Positions 115 to 13,568 of a DNA stretch of 64,000 nucleotides are shown piece after piece. The DNA is from Caulobacter sp. Lineage in GTDB: Bacteria; Pseudomonadota; Alphaproteobacteria; Caulobacterales; Caulobacteraceae. The DNA is taken from contig JAGHZU010000003.1 in NCBI GenBank assembly GCA_017745235.1, forward strand, positions 1-64,000, read 5' to 3'. Position 1 is the first letter of the stretch. Each line of letters begins with the position of its first letter. Below the pieces are notes generated by a model, which ran no database searches, was not told the origin of the DNA, and saw nothing but the letters and a program-made list of their open reading frames with translations. Position numbers and translations under genes: made by a program.

Positions 115-792
115 ATGCAAGTCTTTTGCGATTTCGACGGCACGATCGCCAAGGTCGACACCACCGATCTGGTCCTGAGCAAGCTGGCTGCGCCGGCCTG
201 GGAGGATCTTGAGGCGCAATGGGCGCGCGGCGAAATCACCGCGGCCGAGTGCATGCGCGGCCAGGTCGCGCTGATCGGCGGCGACGATCAGGCGCTGGAC
301 GCCGTACTGGACGGCGTGGAGCTGACCGAAGGCTTCGCGGCTTTCGTCGCCTGGTGCGAGGCCAACGGCGTGCCCTTGACCGTGGTCAGCGACGGCGTGG
401 ACTACTTCATCGCCCGGATCCTCGACCGCCACAGCCTGGGGCACCTGCCGGTCATCGCCAATCGGCTGGTCGGCAACGCCGAGATCGGGCGGCGGCTGGA
501 GCAGCCCTGGTCGCGCGCCGGCTGCGCCGCCGGGTCCGGCGTCTGCAAGTGCCAGGTCGCGACCAAGGCCGACGAGCGCGCCAGCCAGACCGATGAGCTG
601 ATGGTCTTCGTCGGTGACGGGCGCTCCGATTTCTGCGTCGCAGGTCGCGCCGACCTGCTGTTCGCCCGCGACAAGCTGGCCGCCTACGCCCGTTCGCGCG
701 CCATGCCCCATCACGAGTTTTCCGACTTCCACGTCATCACCACGACCCTGGCCTCGATCCGCCAGCGCCTGCCCCGACGCGCGGCCGTCTAA
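115..792 (+). CDS. HAD-superfamily phosphatase (MtnX / phosphoserine-phosphatase-like)
   Basis: MQVFCDFDGTIAKVDTTDLVL HAD motif I and VGDGRSDFCVAGRADLLFA motif IV; internal ATG at 115 preferred over the ORF-track start at 67. Confidence 0.85.
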   Translation: MQVFCDFDGTIAKVDTTDLVLSKLAAPAWEDLEAQWARGEITAAECMRGQVALIGGDDQALDAVLDGVELTEGFAAFVAWCEANGVPLTVVSDGVDYFIARILDRHSLGHLPVIANRLVGNAEIGRRLEQPWSRAGCAAGSGVCKCQVATKADERASQTDELMVFVGDGRSDFCVAGRADLLFARDKLAAYARSRAMPHHEFSDFHVITTTLASIRQRLPRRAAV

Positions 793-810
793 TCCCCCTG
801 GAGATCCTCC

Positions 811-2211
811 ATGTACGATTCTGAACACGCGGCCGACCTGTCGGCCGACGAAGCCCGCCTGCGCGCGCTCGAAGCCGAGTACTGCTCGTACGGCGACACG
901 GTGCACTACCTGCCCGACCCGAAGTTCTTCGCCGGCTGCGAGGGCTCGTTCATGTACGATGCGCGCGGCCGCGAGTACCTGGACCTGCAGATGTGGTACT
1001 CGGCCGTGAACTTCGGCTATCGCAATCCACGCCTGAACGCGGTCGCTCACCGCCAGCTCGACACCCTGCCCCAGGTCGCCAGCCAGTACCTGCACCGCGA
1101 GAAGGTCGAGTTGGCCGCGATGATCGCCCAGGACGCCGAAAAGAAGTTCGGCCGCAAGGGACGCGTCCACTTCAACGTCGGCGGCGCCCAGGCCGTCGAG
1201 GACTCGCTGAAGCTGGTGCGCAACGCCTCGGGCGGCAAGCAGCTGATGTTCGCCTTCGAGGGCGGCTACCACGGCCGCACCCTTGGGGCCTCGGCGATCA
1301 CCTCGTCCTACCGCTATCGCCGCCGCTACGGCCACTTCGGCGACCGCGCCCAGTTCATCGAATTCCCGTACCACTTCCGCGGCCCCAAGGGCATGAGCAA
1401 GGAAGAATACGGCCACTACTGCGTTCAGAAGTTCGCCCGCCTGTTCGAGACCGAATACAACGGCGTACTGGACGTGAAGACCGGCCAGGCCGAGTACGCG
1501 GCTTTCTACATCGAGCCTATCCAGGGCACCGGCGGCTACGTCATCCCGCCGATGAACTTCTTCCCTGAATTGAAAAAGGTGCTGGACCAGTACGGCATCC
1601 TGCTGGTGGTCGACGAGATCCAGATGGGCATGTTCCGCACGGGCAAGCTCTGGTCGATCGAGCACTTCGGCGTGCAGCCCGACGTGCTGGTGTTCGGCAA
1701 GGCCCTGACCAATGGCCTGAACCCCCTGTCCGGCGTCTGGGCCCGCGAGGAGCTCATCAATCCGGAAGTCTTCCCGCCAGGCTCGACCCACTCGACCTTC
1801 AACTCCAACCCCATGGGCACCTCGGTGGCGCTGGAAGCCCTGAAGATGGTCTCGGAGGTCGATTACGGCGCCCAGGTCATGGACAAGGGAGCCTACTTCC
1901 TGGACGGCCTGAAGGAGCTCCAGAAGCGTTGGCCGCAAATCGGCGACGTCGACGGCCTGGGCCTGGCCCTGCGCGCGGAGATCTGCCAGGCCGACGGCTT
2001 CACGCCCAACAAGGCCCTGCTGAACAAGATGGAAGAGGTCGCCATGTCGGGCGAACTCGAGGTCGACGGCAAGACCATGGGTCTGATCCTCGACGTCGGC
2101 GGCTACCACAAGAACGTCATCACGCTCGCGCCCTCGCTGGAGATCAGCAAGGATGAGATCGACCTGGCCCTGAAGCTCCTGGATGCGGTGCTGCGCCGGT
2201 GCGTCGACTGA
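811..2211 (+). CDS. class III (PLP-dependent) aminotransferase
   Basis: FAFEGGYHGRTLGA, LLVVDEIQMGMFRTGKLW, VLVFGKALTNGLNPLSG (PLP lysine) and STFNSNPMGTSVALEAL motifs; 466 aa. Confidence 0.93.
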   Translation: MYDSEHAADLSADEARLRALEAEYCSYGDTVHYLPDPKFFAGCEGSFMYDARGREYLDLQMWYSAVNFGYRNPRLNAVAHRQLDTLPQVASQYLHREKVELAAMIAQDAEKKFGRKGRVHFNVGGAQAVEDSLKLVRNASGGKQLMFAFEGGYHGRTLGASAITSSYRYRRRYGHFGDRAQFIEFPYHFRGPKGMSKEEYGHYCVQKFARLFETEYNGVLDVKTGQAEYAAFYIEPIQGTGGYVIPPMNFFPELKKVLDQYGILLVVDEIQMGMFRTGKLWSIEHFGVQPDVLVFGKALTNGLNPLSGVWAREELINPEVFPPGSTHSTFNSNPMGTSVALEALKMVSEVDYGAQVMDKGAYFLDGLKELQKRWPQIGDVDGLGLALRAEICQADGFTPNKALLNKMEEVAMSGELEVDGKTMGLILDVGGYHKNVITLAPSLEISKDEIDLALKLLDAVLRRCVD

Positions 2212-3134
2212 GCGATCGCCTGACCCCGGTGCTGCTGGACCTCGACGGCGCGTTCGAGGACCAGGGCGCGCTTGTCGAGGAAACCCTGGCGGCTGGCGGC
2301 GACCAGGTCGCCGCCCGCGACCTGGGCCCGGCGCTGCGCTTGTGGAGCCGCCCCCCGGCCCTGGAGGCCCTGCGCGATCGCCTTCGCCAGTCGGCTCCGG
2401 CCGGCCCAAGTCTGGTCTTCACCGGTTCGGGCGACTTCCACCATGTCTCGCCGCTGCTGATCGAGCGGGCGATCGAGGCGTCATGGAGCGGGCCGGTGAC
2501 GGTGCTGCACTTCGACAACCACCCTGATTGGGTGAGGTTCGAGAACGGCATGCACTGCGGATCGTGGGTGGGCCGCGCCGCCCGTCTGCCTGGGGTGGCC
2601 AAGGTCATCACGGTCGGCGTCTGCAGCCGCGACATCGCACACCCCACGTCCAGGAGCGCGCACCTGGACCTGGTGGAGGACGGACGGCTGGAGCTCTACG
2701 CCTACCGCGCCCCCGACGGCGGTTCGACCGTGCGCGTCGGCCGGGCGGCCTGGCCGACGGTCGAGAGCCAAGGCGAGGACGCCTTCATCGACTTCCTGTC
2801 CGCGCGCATACAGACCGACGCGGTCTACGTAACCATCGACAAGGATGTGCTGCGCCACGAGGACGCGGCCACCAACTGGGACCAGGGCCGGACTAGCCTG
2901 GCGTTCCTGGAGGCCATGCTCGCCCGGATCCTGGACGAACACCGCCTGATCGGAGCCGACGTCGTCGGCGACTGGACGCGCCCCCGCTACGGCGGCGGCC
3001 TGGCCGCGGGCCTGCTCAAGCGGGCGGAGGCGATGCTGGACCAGCCCTGGTCGCCGCCGCGCCCGGCGCTCCGCCAGGTGAACGAAGGCGTCAACCGGCG
3101 ACTGTTGCGCATGTTCGTGCAGACTGCGGCATGA
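2199..3134 (+). CDS. arginase/ureohydrolase-fold enzyme of unknown substrate
   Basis: metal-ligand-like motifs GSGDFHH, HFDNHPDW and TIDKDVL..D..TNWDQG; overlaps the aminotransferase stop by 13 nt. Confidence 0.8.
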   Translation: MRRLSDRLTPVLLDLDGAFEDQGALVEETLAAGGDQVAARDLGPALRLWSRPPALEALRDRLRQSAPAGPSLVFTGSGDFHHVSPLLIERAIEASWSGPVTVLHFDNHPDWVRFENGMHCGSWVGRAARLPGVAKVITVGVCSRDIAHPTSRSAHLDLVEDGRLELYAYRAPDGGSTVRVGRAAWPTVESQGEDAFIDFLSARIQTDAVYVTIDKDVLRHEDAATNWDQGRTSLAFLEAMLARILDEHRLIGADVVGDWTRPRYGGGLAAGLLKRAEAMLDQPWSPPRPALRQVNEGVNRRLLRMFVQTAA

Positions 3135-3496
3135 ACGGCTCGCTCGCCTCCGCCGCTGGCCTGCTGGCCTACTGCGTCGCCGCCGAGATCGCCCGCGAAC
3201 TCTGCTTCAAGGCGGCCGCCGACCGCGCCCAAACGGCATCCAACTATGCGCTGGCGCTGGCTGCCCAGCCCATCATGTGGCTGGGCCTGGCGTTCTGGAT
3301 CAGCGAGGCGATCAGCCTGGTGCTGGTCCTGGAAACCGTGCCGCTGTCGGTGGCCTACCCGATCACCAACCTGCCCTATGCCGGCATCCCCATCGCCGGC
3401 GCCCTCCTCTTCCGCGAACGGCTGACCCGCGGCCAGGTGGCCGGCGCGGCCCTGATCGCGGCCGGGGTGGTTCTGGTGGGAGCTTCCGGATTATGA
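3131..3496 (+). CDS. small multidrug-resistance/EamA-like 4-TM membrane protein (half transporter, ArnE/F-like)
   Basis: 121 aa, four hydrophobic helices, PLSVAYPITNLPYAGIPIAGALLFRERLTRGQVAGAALIAAGVVLVG typical of SMR/EamA C-terminal halves. Confidence 0.78.
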   Translation: MNGSLASAAGLLAYCVAAEIARELCFKAAADRAQTASNYALALAAQPIMWLGLAFWISEAISLVLVLETVPLSVAYPITNLPYAGIPIAGALLFRERLTRGQVAGAALIAAGVVLVGASGL

Positions 3497-4320
3497 CCTG
3501 CCCCACCGATCGCGGCTTCCGCCTGCGGGCTGAAGGCCGCCGCGGAGCCCTGCTGGTTCACGGCCTGACGGGCGCGCCCGACGAGATGAAGTTCCTGGCC
3601 AAGCGCCTGCATCGCCAGGGCTTCGACGTCATGGTTCCGCAACTGGCGGGCCATGGCGCGGACATGAAAACCCTGCTGGCCAGCACTTGGCGCGATTGGC
3701 TGGATTCCGTCATCGCCGCTTACGACGTCTTCAGCAGGGAGGTCGACGAGGTCTTCGTCGCCGGCATCTGCGTGGGAGGAGCGCTGGGCCTTGAGCTGGC
3801 CGCTCAACGTCCCGAGATCGCCGCCGCCGCCGTTTACTCCATGACCTTCGAGTATGACGGCTGGAACATGCAGGGCTGGATGAAGGGCGCCTTCCTGATC
3901 CAGGCCGTCGCAAACCTGCCCCTGGTGCGCGAAATCAGCTTCGCCGAGCCCTACCCTTACGGCCTCAAGGACGAACGCCTGCGCGAACGCGTCGCCAAGA
4001 CGCCGGAGAACTTCATCGACGGAGCCTTGGACCGGCTGCCGTTCGGGGCGCTGTTCCAGATGTATCGCCTCGGGCGCCACCTGGAACGGATCGGCGGGCG
4101 CATCGATACGCCCTGCCTGATCCTGCACGCCCGCGAGGACGACATGAGCCATCCCCGCAACGCCTGGCGACTGCGGCGGGCCCTGGGCGAACAAGCCCAG
4201 GTCCGAATGCTCGAGGACAGCTACCACATGGTCCACGTCGACCGGGAACGCGCCCTGGTGGCCGACCAGACGGGAGCCTTCTTCCTGGAGCACTCGCAGG
4301 GGAAGCCGTCCGATGGCTGA
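3493..4320 (+). CDS. alpha/beta hydrolase (carboxylesterase / serine aminopeptidase-like)
   Basis: ALLVHGLTGAPDEMKFLAKRLHRQGFDVMVPQLAGHG, nucleophile elbow GICVGG, DTPCLILHAREDD and SYHMVHVDRE; ATG at 3493 gives a 4-nt overlap with the upstream gene. Confidence 0.88.
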   Translation: MTCPTDRGFRLRAEGRRGALLVHGLTGAPDEMKFLAKRLHRQGFDVMVPQLAGHGADMKTLLASTWRDWLDSVIAAYDVFSREVDEVFVAGICVGGALGLELAAQRPEIAAAAVYSMTFEYDGWNMQGWMKGAFLIQAVANLPLVREISFAEPYPYGLKDERLRERVAKTPENFIDGALDRLPFGALFQMYRLGRHLERIGGRIDTPCLILHAREDDMSHPRNAWRLRRALGEQAQVRMLEDSYHMVHVDRERALVADQTGAFFLEHSQGKPSDG

Positions 4321-5851
4321 GGGCCGTGTTGTCGACACCCTGGCCGCGATCGATCGCGACGCCTGGGACGCGCTCTTTCCGGGCGAGACCGAGCGCTACG
4401 ACTATTTGGCCGCCGTCGAGGCCGCGGGGCTGGACGGCTTCGCCTGGCGCTATGTCCTGGTCGAGGAGGACGGTCGGCTTCTGGCCGCCGCCCCTGCCTT
4501 CATCACCCGGTACGCCCTGGAAACCACGGTTGAGGGCGCGACCCGGAGCGTGCTGCGAGCGCTCGGATGTATCGCGCCAGGTCTGGTTTCCCTGCGCATG
4601 GCCTGCCTCGGCTCACCCTGCACCGAAACCGCGCAGATCGGCTTGGCCGAGCACAAGCGCGGAAGCGCCGACCGCCAACTCCTGATGCGGACGCTTCTGG
4701 CGACCTTCGACGCGGCCGCCCGCGCGGACCGCTGCAGCCTGAGCTCCATCAAGGACCTCCCCGCCCTCGAAGTCGGGGCGTGGGGCGCTTCCCTGGCCCA
4801 TGCCGGCTACCATTCCGTGACCGGCCTGCCGTCGGCCGAGCTCGAGATCGACTTTCCGGACATCGAGACCTACCTGTCGCGCCTGTCGCCGGCCACGCGC
4901 AAGGACATGCGCCGCAAGCTGCGCGCCGCCGGAAACGTCCGCATCGAAATCCGCCGCAACCTCGATGGCCTGGAGGATCAGGTCCTCGCGCTCTATGCCG
5001 AGACACGGGCTCGCGGCGACCTGCAATTCGAGACGCTGACCGCGGACTACTTCACGGGCGTCCTGGAACGCATGGGCGAACGCGCGGCATGCGTGCTCTA
5101 TTTCGTCGAGGACAGGCTGCTGGCCGCCAACCTCGTCCTGCTCGACAACGGGATCCTGCTCGACAAGTTCTTCTGCATGAGCGCCCAGGGGCGCGACCAT
5201 AATCTCTACTTCCTGAGCTGGTTCACGAACGTCCAGTTGTGCCTGGATCGCGGTCTGCGCGGCTACCGCAGCGGCCAGGCCGCCTACGTCAACAAGGTGC
5301 GGCTAGGCAGTCGCCTGACGCCGGTGACGATGTACTTCCGCCACCGCAACCCGTTCGTCGATGGCGTACTGCGCGCGCTCGCGCCGCTGCTGGCGCCTGA
5401 TGCGCCCGACGCGACGCTCCCGAAACCGTCGGACCCACCTCCCGTTCCGGCCACCTTCCGCTCCCGTTGGGCCCGTCGCCTGCTCTTCCTGGCCCTGCCC
5501 TTGCTGGGCCTGGCCTACCAGGTCACCGCCATGGAGACGGCTCGGGCCATGACGGGCGTCCCGTTCGGCGCCGGCTGGCTTCTGACCGCGCTACGCCTGC
5601 CCTGGGCCCAGGCCCTGGTGGCGCTGGAAATCCTCGCCTTCGCCGTCTGGATGGTGGTGCTGTCAGAGGTCAAGCTCAGCGAAGCCTTTCCCCTGTCGGC
5701 GCTCAGCTATGTGCTGGTCGTGGCCGCCAGCTGGACCTTCTTCCACGAACCCGCCAGCCTGCTGCAAGTCCTGGGCGGCGCCGCCATCATGGCCGGGGTC
5801 TGGCTGATTGGCCGCTCCAGCGAGCCCTCTTCCGAAGAGCCGGCCCGATGA
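4313..5851 (+). CDS. fusion of a GNAT/FemAB-like acyltransferase (N-terminal) with an SMR/EamA-like 4-TM domain (C-terminal)
   Basis: N-terminal ~380 aa with LSPATRKDMRRKLRAAGNVRIE...YRSGQAAYVNKVRLGSRLTPVTMYFRHRN as in BioF2/FemAB-like GNAT proteins; C-terminal LLFLALPLLGLAYQVTAMETARAM...LSEVKLSEAFPLSALSYVLVVAASWTFFHEPASLLQVLGGAAIMAGVWLIG as in the second half of SMR/EamA. Confidence 0.8.
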   Translation: MAEGRVVDTLAAIDRDAWDALFPGETERYDYLAAVEAAGLDGFAWRYVLVEEDGRLLAAAPAFITRYALETTVEGATRSVLRALGCIAPGLVSLRMACLGSPCTETAQIGLAEHKRGSADRQLLMRTLLATFDAAARADRCSLSSIKDLPALEVGAWGASLAHAGYHSVTGLPSAELEIDFPDIETYLSRLSPATRKDMRRKLRAAGNVRIEIRRNLDGLEDQVLALYAETRARGDLQFETLTADYFTGVLERMGERAACVLYFVEDRLLAANLVLLDNGILLDKFFCMSAQGRDHNLYFLSWFTNVQLCLDRGLRGYRSGQAAYVNKVRLGSRLTPVTMYFRHRNPFVDGVLRALAPLLAPDAPDATLPKPSDPPPVPATFRSRWARRLLFLALPLLGLAYQVTAMETARAMTGVPFGAGWLLTALRLPWAQALVALEILAFAVWMVVLSEVKLSEAFPLSALSYVLVVAASWTFFHEPASLLQVLGGAAIMAGVWLIGRSSEPSSEEPAR

Positions 5852-6657
5852 GCCCGACTTCGACAGCCGCGCGGGCCAGGATAATCGCGATCGTCTCGGC
5901 GCTCTTCGCCTGCCTCGCAGAACCCTGCCTGGCGGCCGAACAGGCGCCCTCGTCCTACGGTCCCTGGACGGTGGATGTCGGCTTGGCGGCTCGCCTGCGC
6001 CCCGTGCACCTGGGAGCCAGCCGCTACACCACCGACCTGTTGCCCATCCTCGAGGTCAACTACGGCGACCGCCTCACGTTCAGCCTCGACGACGGCCTTA
6101 CCTTGGCGCTCTGGCGCAGCGGCGGCTGGTCGGCCGGCCCGGTGGTCGAGTACCGGCAATCGTACAACGACCGTCTTCCGCGCCGCGCCTACACCATGGA
6201 CGACGCGGTCGAGATCGGCGGCTTCATCAAGCGCCGCACCGCGATCGGCGAGTTCGAACTGCGGACCCGCAAGGCGGTGTCCGGCTACGACGGATGGTCG
6301 GGAGATCTCGCCTTCGACACCGGCGGTCAGGTCGCCCCGAACTGGAAGGTCGGCGCCGAAGCCCGCCTTTCGTGGGCCGACAGCAGCTTCTCCCGGGAAT
6401 ATTTCGGCCTGCGCCGCAATCCGGCTCGATCCATGTCGCTGCCGCGCTTCGGCGAGAACGACTTCTACAGCGCCGGCGTGGAACTGGACGCGGCGCGCGC
6501 GATCGGCCCGCGCTTGTCGATCGTGGCGACGATCAGCGAGGACCGCATCCTGGGCGAGGAATGGGAAAGCCCCCTGCTCGCCAGCCGCAACATCGTCACC
6601 GCCGGCCTGGGCCTGACCTATCGGTTCGGCCGCTTGGCGGAACCAGGAGAGCCGTAA
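5848..6657 (+). CDS. MipA/OmpV family outer-membrane protein
   Basis: signal peptide, YGPWTVDVGLAARLRPVHLGASRY, repeated amphipathic strands, C-terminal GLGLTYRF; ATG at 5848 overlaps the upstream stop. Confidence 0.8.
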   Translation: MSPTSTAARARIIAIVSALFACLAEPCLAAEQAPSSYGPWTVDVGLAARLRPVHLGASRYTTDLLPILEVNYGDRLTFSLDDGLTLALWRSGGWSAGPVVEYRQSYNDRLPRRAYTMDDAVEIGGFIKRRTAIGEFELRTRKAVSGYDGWSGDLAFDTGGQVAPNWKVGAEARLSWADSSFSREYFGLRRNPARSMSLPRFGENDFYSAGVELDAARAIGPRLSIVATISEDRILGEEWESPLLASRNIVTAGLGLTYRFGRLAEPGEP

Positions 6658-6659
6658 CC

Positions 6660-7586
6660 ATGGCCGCGCCGACAACGAACGCCAAGGGCGGGTTCATCTT
6701 CCGCTACACGGCCTGGGACGCCGCGCCGGCCCTGCTGGCCTATCTCCACCTGGCCCTTATCCTGGCGTTCTTCGTCGCGTGGCCCGCCCTGTCCTGGCCG
6801 GCGCGCCTGGCCGGCGGAGCGTTGTACGCCCTCTCCATCGGCTGGAACCTGGACTCGGTGTCCCACAACTTCATCCACAACCCGTTCTTCCGGTCCAAGA
6901 CGCTGAACCGGATCACCGAGTTCGTGCTGACGTTCTCGTTGGGCACGCCGCAAACGATGTATCGCTACGTTCATATGCGCCATCACGCCGGCAATTCGGA
7001 CCGACCGGGGCCCGACGGCGAAACCCTCGACCCGATCTCGATCTACAGGTACGGCGCCGACGGCAAGGCCGAGCCTATGCTGTCCTACGTCTTCCTGCAG
7101 TTCTGGCGCGACGACGGTCCCTTCACCGTGGCCCGGCGGATCCGCGCCAAGCGTCCGGCCGAGGCCCGCCGAGCGCTGGAGGAGTTCTGGGCGATGATCG
7201 CTCTCTACGGTGCGATGGCCCTGATCCATTGGCAATTCGTCGTCGTGCTGGCTCCGTTCTACTACCTCGGCCAAAGCCTCTCGATGCTGATTGCCTACTA
7301 CGAGCACCTGGGAGCCGATCCCGAGACGCCCGTGGCCACAGGGGTTTCGACCTATGGCCCGATCTACAATTTTCTCTTTCTCAACAACGGCTACCACGCC
7401 GAACATCATCACCAGCCGAAACGGCACTGGACCCAGATGAAGGCGCTGCGCGACGCCACGCGCGAGGAGCAGGCTCGCGCAGGGGTGCGGATCATCGGCC
7501 CCGCCCACATGTTCGGCTTCCTGGATCGCTCGTCCTGGGCCATCCCGACGGGGCGGCCACGCCGAGAGACCGAAAGAGCTGGATAA
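6660..7586 (+). CDS. fatty acid desaturase family protein
   Basis: histidine boxes HNFIHNP, HMRHHAGN and GYHAEHHHQP plus TM helices; 308 aa. Confidence 0.88.
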   Translation: MAAPTTNAKGGFIFRYTAWDAAPALLAYLHLALILAFFVAWPALSWPARLAGGALYALSIGWNLDSVSHNFIHNPFFRSKTLNRITEFVLTFSLGTPQTMYRYVHMRHHAGNSDRPGPDGETLDPISIYRYGADGKAEPMLSYVFLQFWRDDGPFTVARRIRAKRPAEARRALEEFWAMIALYGAMALIHWQFVVVLAPFYYLGQSLSMLIAYYEHLGADPETPVATGVSTYGPIYNFLFLNNGYHAEHHHQPKRHWTQMKALRDATREEQARAGVRIIGPAHMFGFLDRSSWAIPTGRPRRETERAG

Positions 7587-7613
7587 CGGAGCCGGCGCCC
7601 TTTTGGGGCGATC

Positions 7614-7636
7614 CCCCACCTCGGCCTGAGGTGGGG
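7614..7636. terminator. hairpin at the end of the eight-gene operon (weak or no U-tract)
   Basis: CCCCACCTC-GGCCT-GAGGTGGGG, perfect 9-bp stem, 28 nt after the desaturase stop. Confidence 0.5.
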
Positions 7637-7720: not shown

Positions 7721-8503
7721 ATGCACGCGCCGCGTCTCCTCACCGCATCCCTGGCCGCCGGCCTGGGATCCCTCGCCTTGGGATCCGCCGCCCAGGCACA
7801 GGACAAGGACTGGGAGGTGAACCTGACCCCCTATGTCTGGGTCGCCTTCCCGAAGGGCGACGTCCACGTGCAGGGCGAAAGGCGCGGCGGCGGTGGAGGC
7901 GGAGGGGGCGGCGACTCGATCATCAACGCCAGTTTCGACGACGTGAAGCTGTCGGGCGTGTTCACCGGCACGGGCGATATTCGCTACAAGCGCTTCGGCG
8001 TGCTGGGCGACCTGACCTACTACGAGATCAAGTCCGACAGCGACGTCTTCGTGGGGCCCATCCGCGCCATCAACGGCGAAGTGAAGGTTTCCGGCACCAA
8101 GGGCCTGATGGTGGGCTACTGGCGCGTCCATGCCGGCGACCGGGCCAATCTCGACCTGCTGGCCGGCGTCCACTACTTGGGCGTCAAGGTCGGCGCCACG
8201 GTCAACATCGCCGACGCCTCGTTCTCGGGCGATGTCGACAAGGACCTTTGGGACCCCGTGATCGGCGTGCGCGGCCAGGCGATGGTCAGCAAGCATTTCG
8301 GGGTGCGTGGCTTGGCCACTTACGGCGGCGGCGGGGACTCGGACTCCCTCTACGAACTGCAGGCCTACGCCACCTACCGCTTCTCGCATCGCGCCACCGC
8401 CCTGGCGGGATATCGCTACTATTCCACCAAGTGGGCCGATCGCCGTCTGGACTACGACGTTTCGTTCAGCGGCCCCCTGATCGGCCTGAACTTCACGTTC
8501 TGA
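7721..8503 (+). CDS. outer-membrane beta-barrel protein with a Gly9 tract
   Basis: signal peptide MHAPRLLTASLAAGLGSLALGSAAQAQ, alternating amphipathic strands, terminal Phe (LIGLNFTF). Confidence 0.75.
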   Translation: MHAPRLLTASLAAGLGSLALGSAAQAQDKDWEVNLTPYVWVAFPKGDVHVQGERRGGGGGGGGGDSIINASFDDVKLSGVFTGTGDIRYKRFGVLGDLTYYEIKSDSDVFVGPIRAINGEVKVSGTKGLMVGYWRVHAGDRANLDLLAGVHYLGVKVGATVNIADASFSGDVDKDLWDPVIGVRGQAMVSKHFGVRGLATYGGGGDSDSLYELQAYATYRFSHRATALAGYRYYSTKWADRRLDYDVSFSGPLIGLNFTF

Positions 8504-8504
8504 C

Positions 8505-9284
8505 CTAGCCTGACCTGCTGGCCAGATAGACCGTCGGGGCGACGCCTAAGGTGCGACGGAACATCGCCGTGTAGGCGCTGGGGCTTTCGTATCCGTGCTC
8601 CAAGGCCACCTCCAGAACGGAGGCCCCCGCCGCCAGCCGGGGCAGGCTGAGCAGCAGGCGCATGCGTCTCAACCACGCGCCGAAGCTCATGCCCAGTTCG
8701 CGATGGAAGAGGCGTGCCAGCGTGCGGCCGCTGACGTGCAACTCCGCCGCAAGCCTCTCCAGCGTAACCGGCGTCGAGGGGTCGGCGATCAACCGCTCGC
8801 ACAGGCGAGCCAGGCGAGGATCGCGCGGCAAGGCCACGTGCAGGCTCAGCCTGGGCGCGGCCTCGATCTCGTCGAGGATCAGGTCCATCACCCGCTCGTC
8901 CCGTCCTCCGAGAGCATAGTCCAGCGGAATGCGCGTCGCCGCGACGATCGCCTCGCGCAGGAAAGGCGACACCTCCAGAACCTCGCAGTTCGAGGGCAAC
9001 ACGGGGCGCGCGTCCTCCCGGACGAAGACGGTGCGCATGGAGACGAGGCCCCCGATCCGGATGGCGTGATCCTGATCCGGCGGCATCCAGAGCGCGCGGC
9101 CGGGCGGCACCACCCAACTTCCTCCGGGGCTGCTCACGGTCATAACCCCGCTCAAGGTGTGGATCAGTTGGGCCCGCCCGTGGCGATGCGGCGCGACGTG
9201 TTCACCATCGGGGTGTTCGCTCGCGAACGCCGCCACGGCTCGTGGCGAAGCCTCGCAGTCCTGAAAAGTGCGCATGATGTCCAT
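8505..9284 (-). CDS. AraC-family transcriptional regulator with N-terminal cupin
   Basis: HRHGRAQLIHTLSGVMTV cupin segment; AAELHVSGRTLARLFHRELGMSFGAWLRRMRL and VALEHGYESPSAYTAMFRRTLG HTH pair; ATG at 9284. Confidence 0.92.
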   Translation of the reverse strand: MDIMRTFQDCEASPRAVAAFASEHPDGEHVAPHRHGRAQLIHTLSGVMTVSSPGGSWVVPPGRALWMPPDQDHAIRIGGLVSMRTVFVREDARPVLPSNCEVLEVSPFLREAIVAATRIPLDYALGGRDERVMDLILDEIEAAPRLSLHVALPRDPRLARLCERLIADPSTPVTLERLAAELHVSGRTLARLFHRELGMSFGAWLRRMRLLLSLPRLAAGASVLEVALEHGYESPSAYTAMFRRTLGVAPTVYLASRSG

Positions 9285-9367
9285 TTGGCGACGACGAATG
9301 TCAGTTTCGCGAGAGAACGACAAGGCCGTCCACCTTAGACGGCAAGCCTCACCGCTGAGCAGAGGCC

Positions 9368-10855
9368 ATGCACAAACGCTTTCCCGGCCTGAGGGCCTGT
9401 CTTCTCCTGCCATCGCTCCTGGCCGGTTGCGCGCATGCGCCGCCTTCTCCCCGCCAGACCGCCATAGCTCCGCCTGACCGGCTCACCGACAGCATGGGGG
9501 TTCGTCCTGAAGCGCCGCCCTCCGATTGGTGGCGCCTCTATCAGGACCCGGATCTGGACGCCCTGGTCACGGAAGCCCTGGTGAACAATCTCGACCTGCG
9601 GGTCGCGTCCGCCCGCCTCCTGGAAGCTCGCGCGATGCTGGATCAGGCCCGCGGCCGGCGCATCCCTTCAACCGAGCTGACAGCTGGCGCGGGCCACGGC
9701 AGCACCCTCGAGGACCAGATCGCCGCCGCGGCGAAGGACGGCTCCTCCATCCGCACGGGGTCGCGCTTCAACCTCGGGACCAAGATATCGTGGGAGCTTG
9801 ACCTCTTCGGCCGCCTGCGGTCCGGCGTGACGATGGCGCGAACGGAAGCCGAAGCCGTCCAGGCCGAGGAGGATGGCGTGCGGGTCCTGGTCGCCGCGCA
9901 GGTGACCGACGCCTGGCTCCGCGCCTGCGGTTTCGCCCGACAGGCTGAAGTCGCGCGAGCCAACGTCGCGCTCGCGCAGCGCGCAAGCGATCTGGCCGAA
10001 CGCCTGCGGGCGGCCGGCGCAGGCCTGCCGATGGACGTGCTGCGCGCCGAAACCCTGGTCGCACAGACCCGCGCCGACGTTCCTCCGCTCGAAGCCGAAC
10101 GACATGGCGCCCTGGTCGAGCTCGCCGTCCTGACGGGGCGATCGCCGACCGATGCGCCAGCGTCAGCCTCGGCCTGTCGTCGACTTCCCTCGATCGAAGG
10201 CGCCCTTCCCGTCGGCGATGGCGCGGCCCTGCTCCGCCGCCGCCCCGACGTCCGGGCCGCCGAACATCGGATGGCGTCAAGCGCGGCAAGGGTCGGCGTG
10301 GCGCTGTCCGACCTCTATCCGCGCATCATGCTGGACGGCGGCGTCGCCAGTTCATCGCCGACGATCGAGGGCCTGGACGTCCGCGGCAATCACGTCTGGC
10401 GCGTGGGCCCGCTGCTGAGCTGGAGTTTCCCCAACACCAGCCTGGCCCGCGCACGCGTCGCCCAGGCCCGGGCTGGCGAGGCGGCGGCTCTCGCCCGGTT
10501 CGACGCCACCGTCCTGACCGCTCTGAAGGAGGTCAACCAGGCCATCGCCGATTACGACGCCGCCTTGGATCGCCGGTCCCAGCTGCGACAGGCGGCCGAA
10601 AGCAGCGCCCAGGCCGACGCCGTGACCCGAACCCGGCGCGCGGCGGGCGCGGCGACCGCCCTCGAGGCCCTGGACGCCGAGCGCGCCGACATCGAGGCGC
10701 AGGCCGCGCTGGCCGTCGCCGACACCCAGGTCGCCGCCGCCCAGGTCGTCCTCTTCAAGGCCCTGGGCGGCGGCTGGGAAGACGCCCCGTCCGCAGCCCT
10801 GATCGCTCCCTCCCAAACAGCCTCCGCCGCACCGTCGGCGGCCTTCGCGAAGTGA
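9368..10855 (+). CDS. NodT-family outer-membrane efflux lipoprotein
   Basis: lipobox LLAGC, DWWRLYQDPDLDALVTEALVNNLDLRVASARL, RRRPDVRAAEHRMASSAARVGVALSDLYPRI. Confidence 0.93.
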   Translation: MHKRFPGLRACLLLPSLLAGCAHAPPSPRQTAIAPPDRLTDSMGVRPEAPPSDWWRLYQDPDLDALVTEALVNNLDLRVASARLLEARAMLDQARGRRIPSTELTAGAGHGSTLEDQIAAAAKDGSSIRTGSRFNLGTKISWELDLFGRLRSGVTMARTEAEAVQAEEDGVRVLVAAQVTDAWLRACGFARQAEVARANVALAQRASDLAERLRAAGAGLPMDVLRAETLVAQTRADVPPLEAERHGALVELAVLTGRSPTDAPASASACRRLPSIEGALPVGDGAALLRRRPDVRAAEHRMASSAARVGVALSDLYPRIMLDGGVASSSPTIEGLDVRGNHVWRVGPLLSWSFPNTSLARARVAQARAGEAAALARFDATVLTALKEVNQAIADYDAALDRRSQLRQAAESSAQADAVTRTRRAAGAATALEALDAERADIEAQAALAVADTQVAAAQVVLFKALGGGWEDAPSAALIAPSQTASAAPSAAFAK

Positions 10856-11988
10856 CCACCGCCATGACCGATAACGCCGCCAAGCCCGCCTCGGCTGTCT
10901 CCACGGCCTCTCGCCTCACCCGCCGCCAGCTCGCCATCGGCGGCTGCTCCGTCGCCCTGGCGGCCGCCGCAGGCTGGGGCTTTCACCACTGGACCACGGG
11001 ACGCTTCCTGGTGGACACCGATAACGCCTATGTCCGCGCCGACGTGGTGACGATCGCGCCGCGCGTCGCCGGCGGCGTCCTCGTGGTCGAGGTGGCCGAC
11101 AATCAACGAGTCCGGGCCGGCGACGTGCTGGCCCGCATCGACGATCGCGACTACCGGATGAAGGTCGAGCAGGCGGAAGGCGCCCTCGCCTCGGCCCAGG
11201 CCGCCGTCGAGGCCCAGCTGGCTCGTATCGCCAATCTCGACGCCCGGTCGACCCAGCAGAAGAGCGCGATCGCCCAGGCCGCGGCTGCCATGGCCGCGCG
11301 CCAGGCCGACGCTCGCCTGGCCGATATCGAATACAGGCGCCAGGCGGACCTCGCCCGCCAGCAGGTGACCAGCGACCAGATCATGCAGGCGGCCGAGGCC
11401 GGGGCCCACCGAATGCGCGCGAGCGTGGCCGAGGCCCAGGCGGCCCTGGCTGCTGCTCGCGAACAGCAGCCGATCCTGGCGACCGAGCGCGCCGAAGCGA
11501 CGGCCGAGCTCGACAAGGCGCGGGGCGCGTTTCGCCTGGCGACGGCGGGCCTGGCGGCCGCACGCTTGGACTTGGAGCGCACGCTTCTCCGCGCCCCGGT
11601 CGATGGGCGCGTGGGCCAGCGGACCGTCAGGCCCGGCCACTACGTCGAGGCCGGCATGCCGTTGATGGCGGTGGTGCCCGACAACGCCTACGTGGTCGCC
11701 AATTACAAGGAGACCCAGACCGATCGCATGCGACCGGGCCAACCGGTCCGGATCAAGGTTGATGCGTTCGGCGGGGCCGTCCTCAGGGGCCACGTCGACA
11801 GCGCCGCCCCCGCCTCGGGCGCCCAGTTCGCGCTGCTGCCGCCTGACAATGCGACCGGCAATTTCACCAAGATCGTCCAGCGCCTCCCGCTGCGCATCCG
11901 GATAGACGCCGGCCAGCCGCGGGCGGCCGACCTTCGCCCCGGCATGTCGGTCGAAACGCAGGTCGACACACGGGACGCCCGATCGTGA
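10852..11988 (+). CDS. HlyD/EmrA-family membrane fusion protein
   Basis: DTDNAYVRADVVTIAPRVAGGVLVVEVADNQRVRAGDVLARID and RTLLRAPVDGRVGQRTVRPGHYVEAGMPLMAVVP. Confidence 0.93.
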   Translation: MTTAMTDNAAKPASAVSTASRLTRRQLAIGGCSVALAAAAGWGFHHWTTGRFLVDTDNAYVRADVVTIAPRVAGGVLVVEVADNQRVRAGDVLARIDDRDYRMKVEQAEGALASAQAAVEAQLARIANLDARSTQQKSAIAQAAAAMAARQADARLADIEYRRQADLARQQVTSDQIMQAAEAGAHRMRASVAEAQAALAAAREQQPILATERAEATAELDKARGAFRLATAGLAAARLDLERTLLRAPVDGRVGQRTVRPGHYVEAGMPLMAVVPDNAYVVANYKETQTDRMRPGQPVRIKVDAFGGAVLRGHVDSAAPASGAQFALLPPDNATGNFTKIVQRLPLRIRIDAGQPRAADLRPGMSVETQVDTRDARS

Positions 11989-13568
11989 GCGTCGCGACAC
12001 GAACGATCGAAGCCCCTTCCGAAGCCGTCTCGCTGCGCGCTTGGGTGGCGGTGCTGGCCGGCGTGGTCGGCTGCTTCATGGCCGGCATGAACGTTCATGT
12101 CACCAACGCCTCCCTGCCCCAGGTTCGCGGCGCGTTGGGCGCCTCGTTCGAGGAGGGCTCATGGATCACCACAGCCTATCTGGTGGCCGAGATCATCATC
12201 ATTCCGATGACAGGATGGCTGGTTTCGGTCTTCTCGATGCGGCGGGTGCTGATGGTGGGCGCAGCCGGCTTCGTCACCTTCTCGATCGTCTGCTCCCTGG
12301 CCCCGGACATAGGCGTCATGATCCTGGCCCGAGCGCTTCAAGGCGCGTTCGGCGGGGTGCTGATCCCGTTGTCCTTCCAGATCATCGCCACCGAACTGCC
12401 CTCGTCGAAACACCCCTTCGGCATGGCGCTCTTCGCCGTGGCCAACAACGTCGCCCAGGCCGCCGGCCCGTCGTTGGGCGGTTGGCTGACCGAGACCCAC
12501 AACTGGCGCTGGATCTTCTACCTCCAGGTCCCGCCCAGCCTGCTGCTGCTGGCCGCGATCGGCTGGGCGACTCCGCGCACGCCCCCTGCCCTGGAAAAGC
12601 TGCGCAACGGCGACTGGGCCGGAATCGCCGCCATGGCCATCGGCCTTTCGGCGCTGCAGATCATGCTTGAAGAAGGCGGCCGAAAGGATTGGTTCGCCTC
12701 ACCTTTCGTCGTCAACACCGCGATCATCGCCACCGTGGGCCTGGCCGCCTTCGTCATCATAGAGCTGCGACGCAGGGAGCCCTTCATCAACCTGCGCCTG
12801 CTGGGCCGCTATAACTTCGGGCTCGCCAGCCTGATGCAGTTCATGTTCGGCGCGGCCGTGTTCGGCGTGGTCTTTCTGGTGCCGAACTATTTCGCCGAGA
12901 CCCAGAACTACAACGCCCAGGCCATCGGCCTGACCATGATCCCCTATGGGCTGATCCAACTGGTCATGTCGTTCGCCACGCCGCGGCTGATGCGCTGGGC
13001 GGGCGTGCGCGCGATCATTATCCTGGGCTTTGTCGTGATGGCCGCCGGTTGCCTGATGAACATCCATCTGGACGCCGACGCCGCCGCCAACGTCATCGTG
13101 CCATCGCTGGTGGTGCGGGGCGTCGGCCAGTCGTTCATCGTGGTGGCGCTTGGGGTCATGGCCGTCAACGGCCTGGAAAAGTCCGAGGTGGGCTCGGCCT
13201 CCGGCTTGTTTTCGACCGTCCGCAACGTTGGCGGCGCCATCGGCATCGCCCTGGCCGGACAGTTCGTCGTGGAGCGCGAGAAACTCCACGCCAGCCGTAT
13301 CGGCGAGGCTGTCACTCCCTTCTCCATCGCCTTTCGCGAGCGCATGGGCGAAATGGTCGACCTGCTGAGCGGCCAGCACGTGAACCGGCACGCCGCGCTC
13401 TACGGGGAAGGCGCGGCGTCGGCTCGCCAGGCCAGCCTGGCCCTGATGGACCGCCTGGTCCATCATCAGGCGCTGCTCCAGTCCTACAGCGACGCCTTCC
13501 TCGTGGCGGGGCTCAGCATGCTGGTGTGCGCTCTAGGCGGCTTGGCCCTGAAGGTGGGCCGAAGATGA
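11985..13568 (+). CDS. DHA2-family (EmrB/QacA-type) MFS transporter
   Basis: 527 aa, ~14 hydrophobic helices, ASFEEGSWITTAYLVAEIIIIPMTGWL and RALQGAFGGVLIPLSFQI. Confidence 0.93.
   Translation: MSVATRTIEAPSEAVSLRAWVAVLAGVVGCFMAGMNVHVTNASLPQVRGALGASFEEGSWITTAYLVAEIIIIPMTGWLVSVFSMRRVLMVGAAGFVTFSIVCSLAPDIGVMILARALQGAFGGVLIPLSFQIIATELPSSKHPFGMALFAVANNVAQAAGPSLGGWLTETHNWRWIFYLQVPPSLLLLAAIGWATPRTPPALEKLRNGDWAGIAAMAIGLSALQIMLEEGGRKDWFASPFVVNTAIIATVGLAAFVIIELRRREPFINLRLLGRYNFGLASLMQFMFGAAVFGVVFLVPNYFAETQNYNAQAIGLTMIPYGLIQLVMSFATPRLMRWAGVRAIIILGFVVMAAGCLMNIHLDADAAANVIVPSLVVRGVGQSFIVVALGVMAVNGLEKSEVGSASGLFSTVRNVGGAIGIALAGQFVVEREKLHASRIGEAVTPFSIAFRERMGEMVDLLSGQHVNRHAALYGEGAASARQASLALMDRLVHHQALLQSYSDAFLVAGLSMLVCALGGLALKVGRR

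Follow-up and report, generated by a model that had tools for sequence, protein, structure and literature searches.

Which product could unite a HAD-type phosphatase (HAD), a class-III aminotransferase (AT3), an arginase-fold enzyme (ARG), two small multidrug resistance half-transporters (SMR1 and SMR2), an alpha/beta hydrolase (ABH), a tandem-GNAT transferase (GNAT), an outer-membrane barrel (MIP) and a desaturase-like enzyme (DES) in a single operon? The question is raised by positions 115-7586 of the stretch analyzed here (the window: 64,000 nucleotides of Caulobacter sp. contig JAGHZU010000003.1, that is, G000:C101 from base 1), where eight complete, intact open reading frames (ORFs) lie on the + strand. 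From the families, gene order, conserved residues, folds and module co-occurrence that we observed, we favor, at a rough probability of 45%, a regulated operon that would make and export a cationic lipid, or a lipid-like conjugate, that bears an amine. A preliminary description of this DNA had proposed an amino-modified lipid or envelope conjugate. That idea was partly strengthened, by the ArnE/F-like transporter pair, the FemX/MprF-like fold, the acyl-chain genes and the QseBC/PmrAB-like regulators.

Conservation and modules of the cluster

Using ARG as the sole query, we fetched 80 loci, which carry HAD (74 loci), AT3 (78), SMR1 (76), ABH (78), GNAT (77) and SMR2 (69). HAD, AT3, ARG, SMR, ABH and GNAT are all present in 70 of the 80, several of the incomplete loci being cut by contig ends, and 69 of these 70 share the same order and strand. 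The association of these genes is therefore not due to chance, and the proviso of the preliminary description that gene order might not be conserved in related genomes can be set aside. Successive ORFs in the window are separated by +18, -13, -4, -4, -8, -4 and +2 nt, the last value reflecting an ATG start of the desaturase gene at position 6660, after the MipA gene. The run is very likely a single transcription unit, as first described, and the ORF check and family profiles bore out the eight ORFs with their coordinates, strand and families; apart from the two SMR halves, all of the families pass their Pfam cut-offs. Within the run, no promoter or terminator pattern rose above the shuffled control, with no intrinsic terminator or sigma-70-like promoter being prominent.

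To delimit the modules, we used a 399-genome sample of the phylum (Proteobacteria), in which ARG matches occurred in 17 genomes and AT3 matches in 26. All ARG genomes also carry AT3, save G307, whose ARG match is weak and out of context; ten AT3 genomes have no ARG match. In seven of the eight AT3-only neighborhoods inspected, HAD, AT3 and ABH occur without recognizable GNAT or ARG, in some cases together with a ketoacyl synthase (KAS), SMR or pump gene. In the eighth (L179:9412-11732), an AT3 homologue (57%) overlaps a sulfotransferase gene, with no HAD, ARG or GNAT nearby. These neighborhoods therefore define HAD, AT3 and ABH as the core and GNAT plus ARG as an add-on pair, which behaves as one module, gained and lost together.

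The acyl-chain genes vary. In many loci a desaturase gene separates SMR1 from ABH, and a different, terminal desaturase is found in the window's clade; the latter's orthologue comes after acyl carrier protein (ACP) and KAS genes in Phenylobacterium loci L034, L044 and L045. Cyclopropane fatty acid (CFA) synthase occurs in Rhizobium and in the window's genome, and ACP plus KAS occurs in Phenylobacterium and Xanthomonas.

The cluster is patchy among relatives (7 of 61 genomes, all of the same genus) and is plasmid-borne in Rhizobium, Agrobacterium and others; many carriers are soil and plant-associated bacteria. Rearranged homologous sets exist elsewhere in the phylum, including on plasmids: a Xanthomonas sacchari plasmid set comes with KAS, ACP, a DegT aminotransferase and a pump, and a Roseomonas plasmid has a glutamate-semialdehyde-aminomutase-like protein in place of AT3. 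On a Bartonella plasmid (L138:9926-15929), AT3-GNAT-ARG adjoins an AlgX-like protein and an MBOAT acyltransferase, with no SMR, ABH or HAD nearby. No curated family names a pathway for the whole cluster, nor does any paper found in an open-access library, where searches for the gene combination and for polymyxin or aminolipid contexts yielded nothing of relevance; this is in line with the first impression that it matches no named one. Its carriers include Caulobacter, Phenylobacterium, Brevundimonas, Rhizobium, Agrobacterium, Brucella relatives and Xanthomonas, and this recurrence implies that an amino-lipid of the envelope, or a secreted one, is conserved among them, one undescribed in the sources searched. 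PADLOC gave no anti-phage defence match, and phage records gave no match. The mangotoxin mbo operon has only an EamA transporter and the term desaturase in common with the cluster; in a Rhizobium tropici acid-stress paper, neither arginase nor desaturase, aminotransferase or MipA is mentioned. Close to one locus lies a large ORF that looked like a nonribosomal peptide synthetase gene but is actually UvrA-like.

The encoded enzymes and transporters

The core begins with HAD (115-792, 225 aa), an MtnX-like HAD-IB phosphatase that passes the Pfam cut-offs for HAD (53.8 bits) and Put_Phosphatase and scores 96.9 bits against TIGR01489 (cut-off, 81.6). Across 48 homologues, the stretches DFDGT, GDGxSD and CxxxxxxCKC are conserved. 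AT3 (811-2211, 466 aa; Pfam Aminotran_3, 256 bits, E = 5.5e-76) is better conserved than any other protein of the cluster (identity to 34 homologues, 70-94%), and Lys297, which binds pyridoxal phosphate, is invariant. All 35 sequences compared have Thr438 where gamma-aminobutyrate (GABA) aminotransferase has the carboxylate-binding Arg398, which sets AT3 apart from the named class-III enzymes, and none of the NCBIfam equivalog cut-offs compared (GabT, ArgD, OAT, BioA and DABA AT) was reached (best, 273.7 bits; cut-off, 552). ABH (3493-4320, 275 aa; Pfam Hydrolase_4, 69.6 bits, E = 3.2e-19) has a Cys nucleophile elbow, GICVGG, with Asp216/Asp217 and His245, the acid and the His being conserved in 49 sequences. 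The nucleophile is Cys in most alphaproteobacterial members and Ser (GLSMGA) in others that are otherwise homologous.

ARG (2199-3134, GTG start, 311 aa) belongs to the arginase/ureohydrolase family by both profile and fold: it scores 37 bits against Pfam Arginase (cut-off, 22; E = 3.5e-9), and the best Foldseek matches of its model are solved ureohydrolases (template modeling [TM] score, ~0.55), including guanidinase and metformin hydrolase. The metal motifs GSGD[FY]HH, DNHPD and DKD are invariant in 36 of 36 sequences, and the six metal-binding His/Asp residues are kept. Compared with L-arginase reference residues (in part from PMC10028609), ARG lacks Glu277 and the Asn two residues after DxHxD, a departure from true L-arginases. 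The idea that ARG is a UPF0489 peptide arginase was rejected, as PF12640 was unmatched in eight of nine genomes (best, 12 bits; cut-off, 27).

The other half of the add-on pair is encoded at 4313-5851, where GNAT (residues ~1-360) is fused to SMR2 (residues ~380-505; NCBIfam ArnF, E = 1.8e-10). Pfam FemAB_like (FemAB_like/GNAT, 40.3 bits in the window) matched all 36 GNAT members, FemAB matched 3 and ATE_C (arginine-tRNA-protein transferase) matched 2, weakly (E = 0.14). The tandem-GNAT fold combined with the FemAB_like profile places all 36 in the FemAB-type superfamily. DUF2156, the MprF synthase domain, was not among the Pfam matches of the 36 members, so that GNAT is no MprF by profile, its fold being similar. 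The nearest solved folds are the aminoacyl-tRNA-dependent Sbb17/Sba18, FemX (E ~1e-11) and the MprF synthase domain; identity to FemX and Sbb17/Sba18 is only 15-17%. The model of the fusion has a mean pLDDT of 81, mostly >90 in the transferase part.

SMR1 (3131-3496, 121 aa; NCBIfam ArnE, E = 9.9e-12) and SMR2 both fall just below Pfam cut-offs. Their best NCBIfam matches, ArnE for SMR1 (45 bits; cut-off, 92) and ArnF for SMR2 (41 bits; cut-off, 99), do not reach equivalog level, but both halves are encoded together in most loci, as expected of an ArnE/ArnF-type flippase of two half-size SMR proteins. The preliminary description had taken the GNAT-SMR fusion as a cluster marker. This did not hold, as the two share one ORF in 1 of 105 loci, that of the window, and a 1-nt difference at the junction breaks the fusion in the nearest relative (L012:10112-11631). 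The fusion is possibly recent, or a sequencing error in either genome. The last two genes encode MIP (5848-6657, 269 aa), a MipA/OmpV-family outer-membrane barrel (Pfam MipA, 104 bits, E = 1.6e-29), and DES (6660-7586, 308 aa; Pfam FA_desaturase, 112 bits, E = 4.8e-32), a membrane di-iron enzyme whose three His boxes (HNFIH, HMRHH and HAEHH) and profile score mark it as fatty-acid desaturase/hydroxylase-like.

Envelope cassettes and the left flank

Loci differ in the envelope functions that accompany the cluster. Among 109 loci, MipA is present in 57, a MacB/HlyD/TolC-type pump in 25 and both in 0. Of the Caulobacterales loci, 21 extend at least 6 kb downstream; 8 of these have MipA, 13 have the pump, and none has both or neither (Fisher P = 5e-6, which for related species is not an independent-sample probability). 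MipA is accompanied by a QseBC/PmrAB-like two-component system in six of the eight, the other two being cut by contig ends, and FecI/FecR occurs in 11 of the 13 pump loci. In Caulobacter and Brevundimonas loci, genes for a MacB-type permease, HlyD, TolC and an ABC ATPase lie directly downstream and those for FecI, FecR and a TonB receptor directly upstream; the pump is also found in Xanthomonas sacchari and other non-alpha loci. The two-component regulators are nearest to QseBC/PmrAB. In Pseudomonas aeruginosa, MipA binds polymyxins and is a co-sensor for ParS (PMC10936184), which offers a lead, by analogy and not as a test, for the function of MipA in the cluster.

The window starts at a contig end, within the right-hand end of an insertion sequence (IS) with CTAG target bases (1-28). 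The 26-mer of this IS end occurs only at the ends of contigs C90, C101 and C156; a partner end motif ends C83 (G000:C83:62129-62154), begins C86 and is also on C95 and C134. Both motifs join flanking DNA at CTAG, and the repeated element looks like a multicopy IS that targets CTAG and interrupts the assembly immediately before the HAD gene. A histidine-kinase orthologue lies directly before HAD in L012 and, in the window's genome, at the last bases of C83 (79% identity), as part of a 3.4-kb match to L012 (80.6%) that spans CFA synthase, response regulator and histidine kinase. The likely order is CFA synthase-response regulator-histidine kinase-[IS]-HAD-AT3-ARG-SMR-ABH-GNAT/SMR-MipA-DES; since these ends are common to several contigs, the join between C83 and the window is drawn from gene order. 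The eight-gene run of the preliminary description (115-7586) stands, but the L012 gene order indicates that the operon probably begins further left than 115.

Downstream of the operon, a palindrome without a T run (CCCCACCTCGGCCTGAGGTGGGG, 7611-7636) is followed by a gene for an outer-membrane barrel-like protein with a nine-glycine run (ERRGGGGGGGGGDSI, 7722-8503). At 8505-13568, an AraC-type regulator gene (- strand) adjoins NodT-like outer-membrane factor, EmrA-like and EmrB-like genes (named by eye), which make up a second efflux cassette next to the operon.

Candidate products and known systems

For the cationic amino-lipid that we favor, we infer every substrate, the product, the transport direction and the tRNA dependence from the families and folds above. 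AT3 would transaminate a small precursor, HAD would take off a phosphate and ABH would cleave an ester or thioester. GNAT, as a FemX/MprF-type enzyme, may then add an aminoacyl or acyl residue, and ARG would hydrolyze the resulting conjugate, for instance from arginyl to ornithyl plus urea. Desaturases, CFA synthase and ACP plus KAS, differing by lineage, would set the acyl chain; the two ArnE/F-like SMR halves, as a heterodimer, would carry the product across the inner membrane; and an envelope cassette (a two-component system with MipA, or FecI/FecR/TonB receptor with the MacB/HlyD/TolC pump) would sense it or pass it on. The pairing of GNAT with a divergent ARG suggests arginine aminoacylation followed by conversion to ornithine. 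To our knowledge, no tRNA is dedicated to ornithine, which would account for the joint occurrence of GNAT and ARG. The full version of this idea, a tRNA-dependent ornithyl-lipid in which GNAT moves arginyl from Arg-tRNA to an AT3-made amine, ARG converts it to ornithyl plus urea and the split SMR flippase exports it, is speculative, and we consider it unlikely as a whole.

Several observations weigh against the amino-lipid. All 36 ARG sequences have Gly257 (at D254 + 3) where arginase has Glu277, although D/E258 comes next in all; AT3 lacks the usual carboxylate-binding Arg, which makes its substrate hard to predict. A tandem-GNAT fold alone is no proof of aminoacyl-tRNA use, as ordinary tandem acetyltransferases are among the fold matches too, and the model of the fusion is weak in its SMR half (pLDDT, ~40 to 60). 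The absence of ARG and GNAT from AT3-only genomes comes from searches with the families' own sequences, which very divergent copies could escape. Finally, the cassettes with pump and TonB receptor point to a diffusible product in at least some lineages.

A secreted metabolite fits almost as well as an amino-lipid because many loci carry the pump and FecI/FecR/TonB-receptor cassette instead of MipA and a two-component system. It would be a natural product of lipo-amino type, acting as an antimicrobial, a signal or a metallophore, that leaves the cell by the tripartite pump or across the envelope and has the receptor or the two-component system as its sensor; we entertain it tentatively, as the main alternative. 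The placement of pump and receptor directly beside the cluster in Caulobacter and Brevundimonas, the pump in non-alpha loci, the patchy and often plasmid-borne distribution and the closeness of the GNAT fold to the natural-product peptide synthases Sbb17/Sba18 all agree with it. However, no dedicated assembly-line enzyme was seen in the loci, two small SMR flippase halves would be odd for a soluble compound, and the pump is absent from most loci, the window copy having MipA instead.

It is rather doubtful that the cluster instead builds an amino-sugar or amino-polyol, akin to 4-amino-4-deoxy-L-arabinose (L-Ara4N), that an ArnE/F-type pair would flip for attachment to lipid A or a different envelope polymer, giving cationic-peptide resistance. 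The SMR similarity to ArnE/F, the PmrAB/QseBC-like regulators and the polymyxin co-sensor role of MipA in P. aeruginosa (PMC10936184) point this way, as does a DegT/ArnB-class aminotransferase that adjoins the SMR halves in loci outside the Rhizobiales, among them those of Roseomonas and Xanthomonas. One Agrobacterium copy (plasmid pAt2788a, L139:16907-18942) is directly followed by genes for lipid A phosphoethanolamine transferase (eptA) and diacylglycerol kinase (dgkA). Yet the annotated genes of the loci include no glycosyltransferase and no ArnA, ArnC, ArnD or ArnT homologue, the ArnE and ArnF cut-offs are unreached, and the acyl-chain enzymes would be left unexplained.

LpiA and AcvB are a transferase and an alpha/beta hydrolase encoded in one operon (PMC13197417), an arrangement also seen here, and MprF synthase domains are among the GNAT fold matches. 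A membrane-turnover pair of this kind, in which GNAT aminoacylates a phospholipid and ABH takes the residue off, is nevertheless improbable: ABH has no obvious signal peptide in its sequence, whereas AcvB is periplasmic, and HAD-AT3-ABH exists without GNAT, so that ABH more likely serves the core reaction. Least probable is an operon that breaks down or detoxifies amines or guanidines. Guanidine metabolism does include aminotransferases, arginase-fold enzymes and SMR exporters, and guanidinase and metformin hydrolase are among the fold matches of ARG, but the acyl-chain enzymes, the FemAB-type transferase, the outer-membrane barrel and the envelope-type regulators are out of keeping with it.

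If the ornithyl-lipid proposal is true, its biosynthetic logic, in which a lipid arginase works with a Fem-type transferase, would be new, and the pairing, if it works as proposed, would offer a new way of putting ornithine on lipids. The cluster may also bear on how its carriers respond to cationic peptides and membrane stress. Because it is modular, with the head-group genes fixed and the acyl, sensor and outer-membrane cassettes interchangeable, its product can be found by comparative lipidomics.

Among known systems, MprF (lysyl-phosphatidylglycerol synthase) and LpiA-AcvB likewise couple a tandem-GNAT transferase to a membrane flippase, with a hydrolase in the same operon. The cluster differs in that its GNAT is FemAB_like rather than DUF2156, its flippase is a pair of four-helix SMR halves rather than an MprF domain, its hydrolase is probably cytoplasmic, and AT3, HAD and ARG are additional. 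With arnBCADTEF, which serves L-Ara4N modification of lipid A, it shares the ArnE/F-like SMR pair, PmrAB-like regulators and, in some loci, the DegT/ArnB-class aminotransferase; ArnA, ArnC, ArnD and ArnT were not seen, and dedicated acyl enzymes, a FemAB-type GNAT and an arginase-like enzyme set it apart. The peptide arginase OspR (landornamide) belongs to UPF0489 and has EEH(N/H)EAF, unlike ARG, which belongs to PF00491, has GSGDFHH and comes with no precursor peptide seen in the cluster. Both are nonetheless atypical arginases with an arginase-type metal site and a proposed action on a conjugate, and Glu277 is replaced in both, in ARG by Gly257 and in OspR by Ser (PMC10028609).

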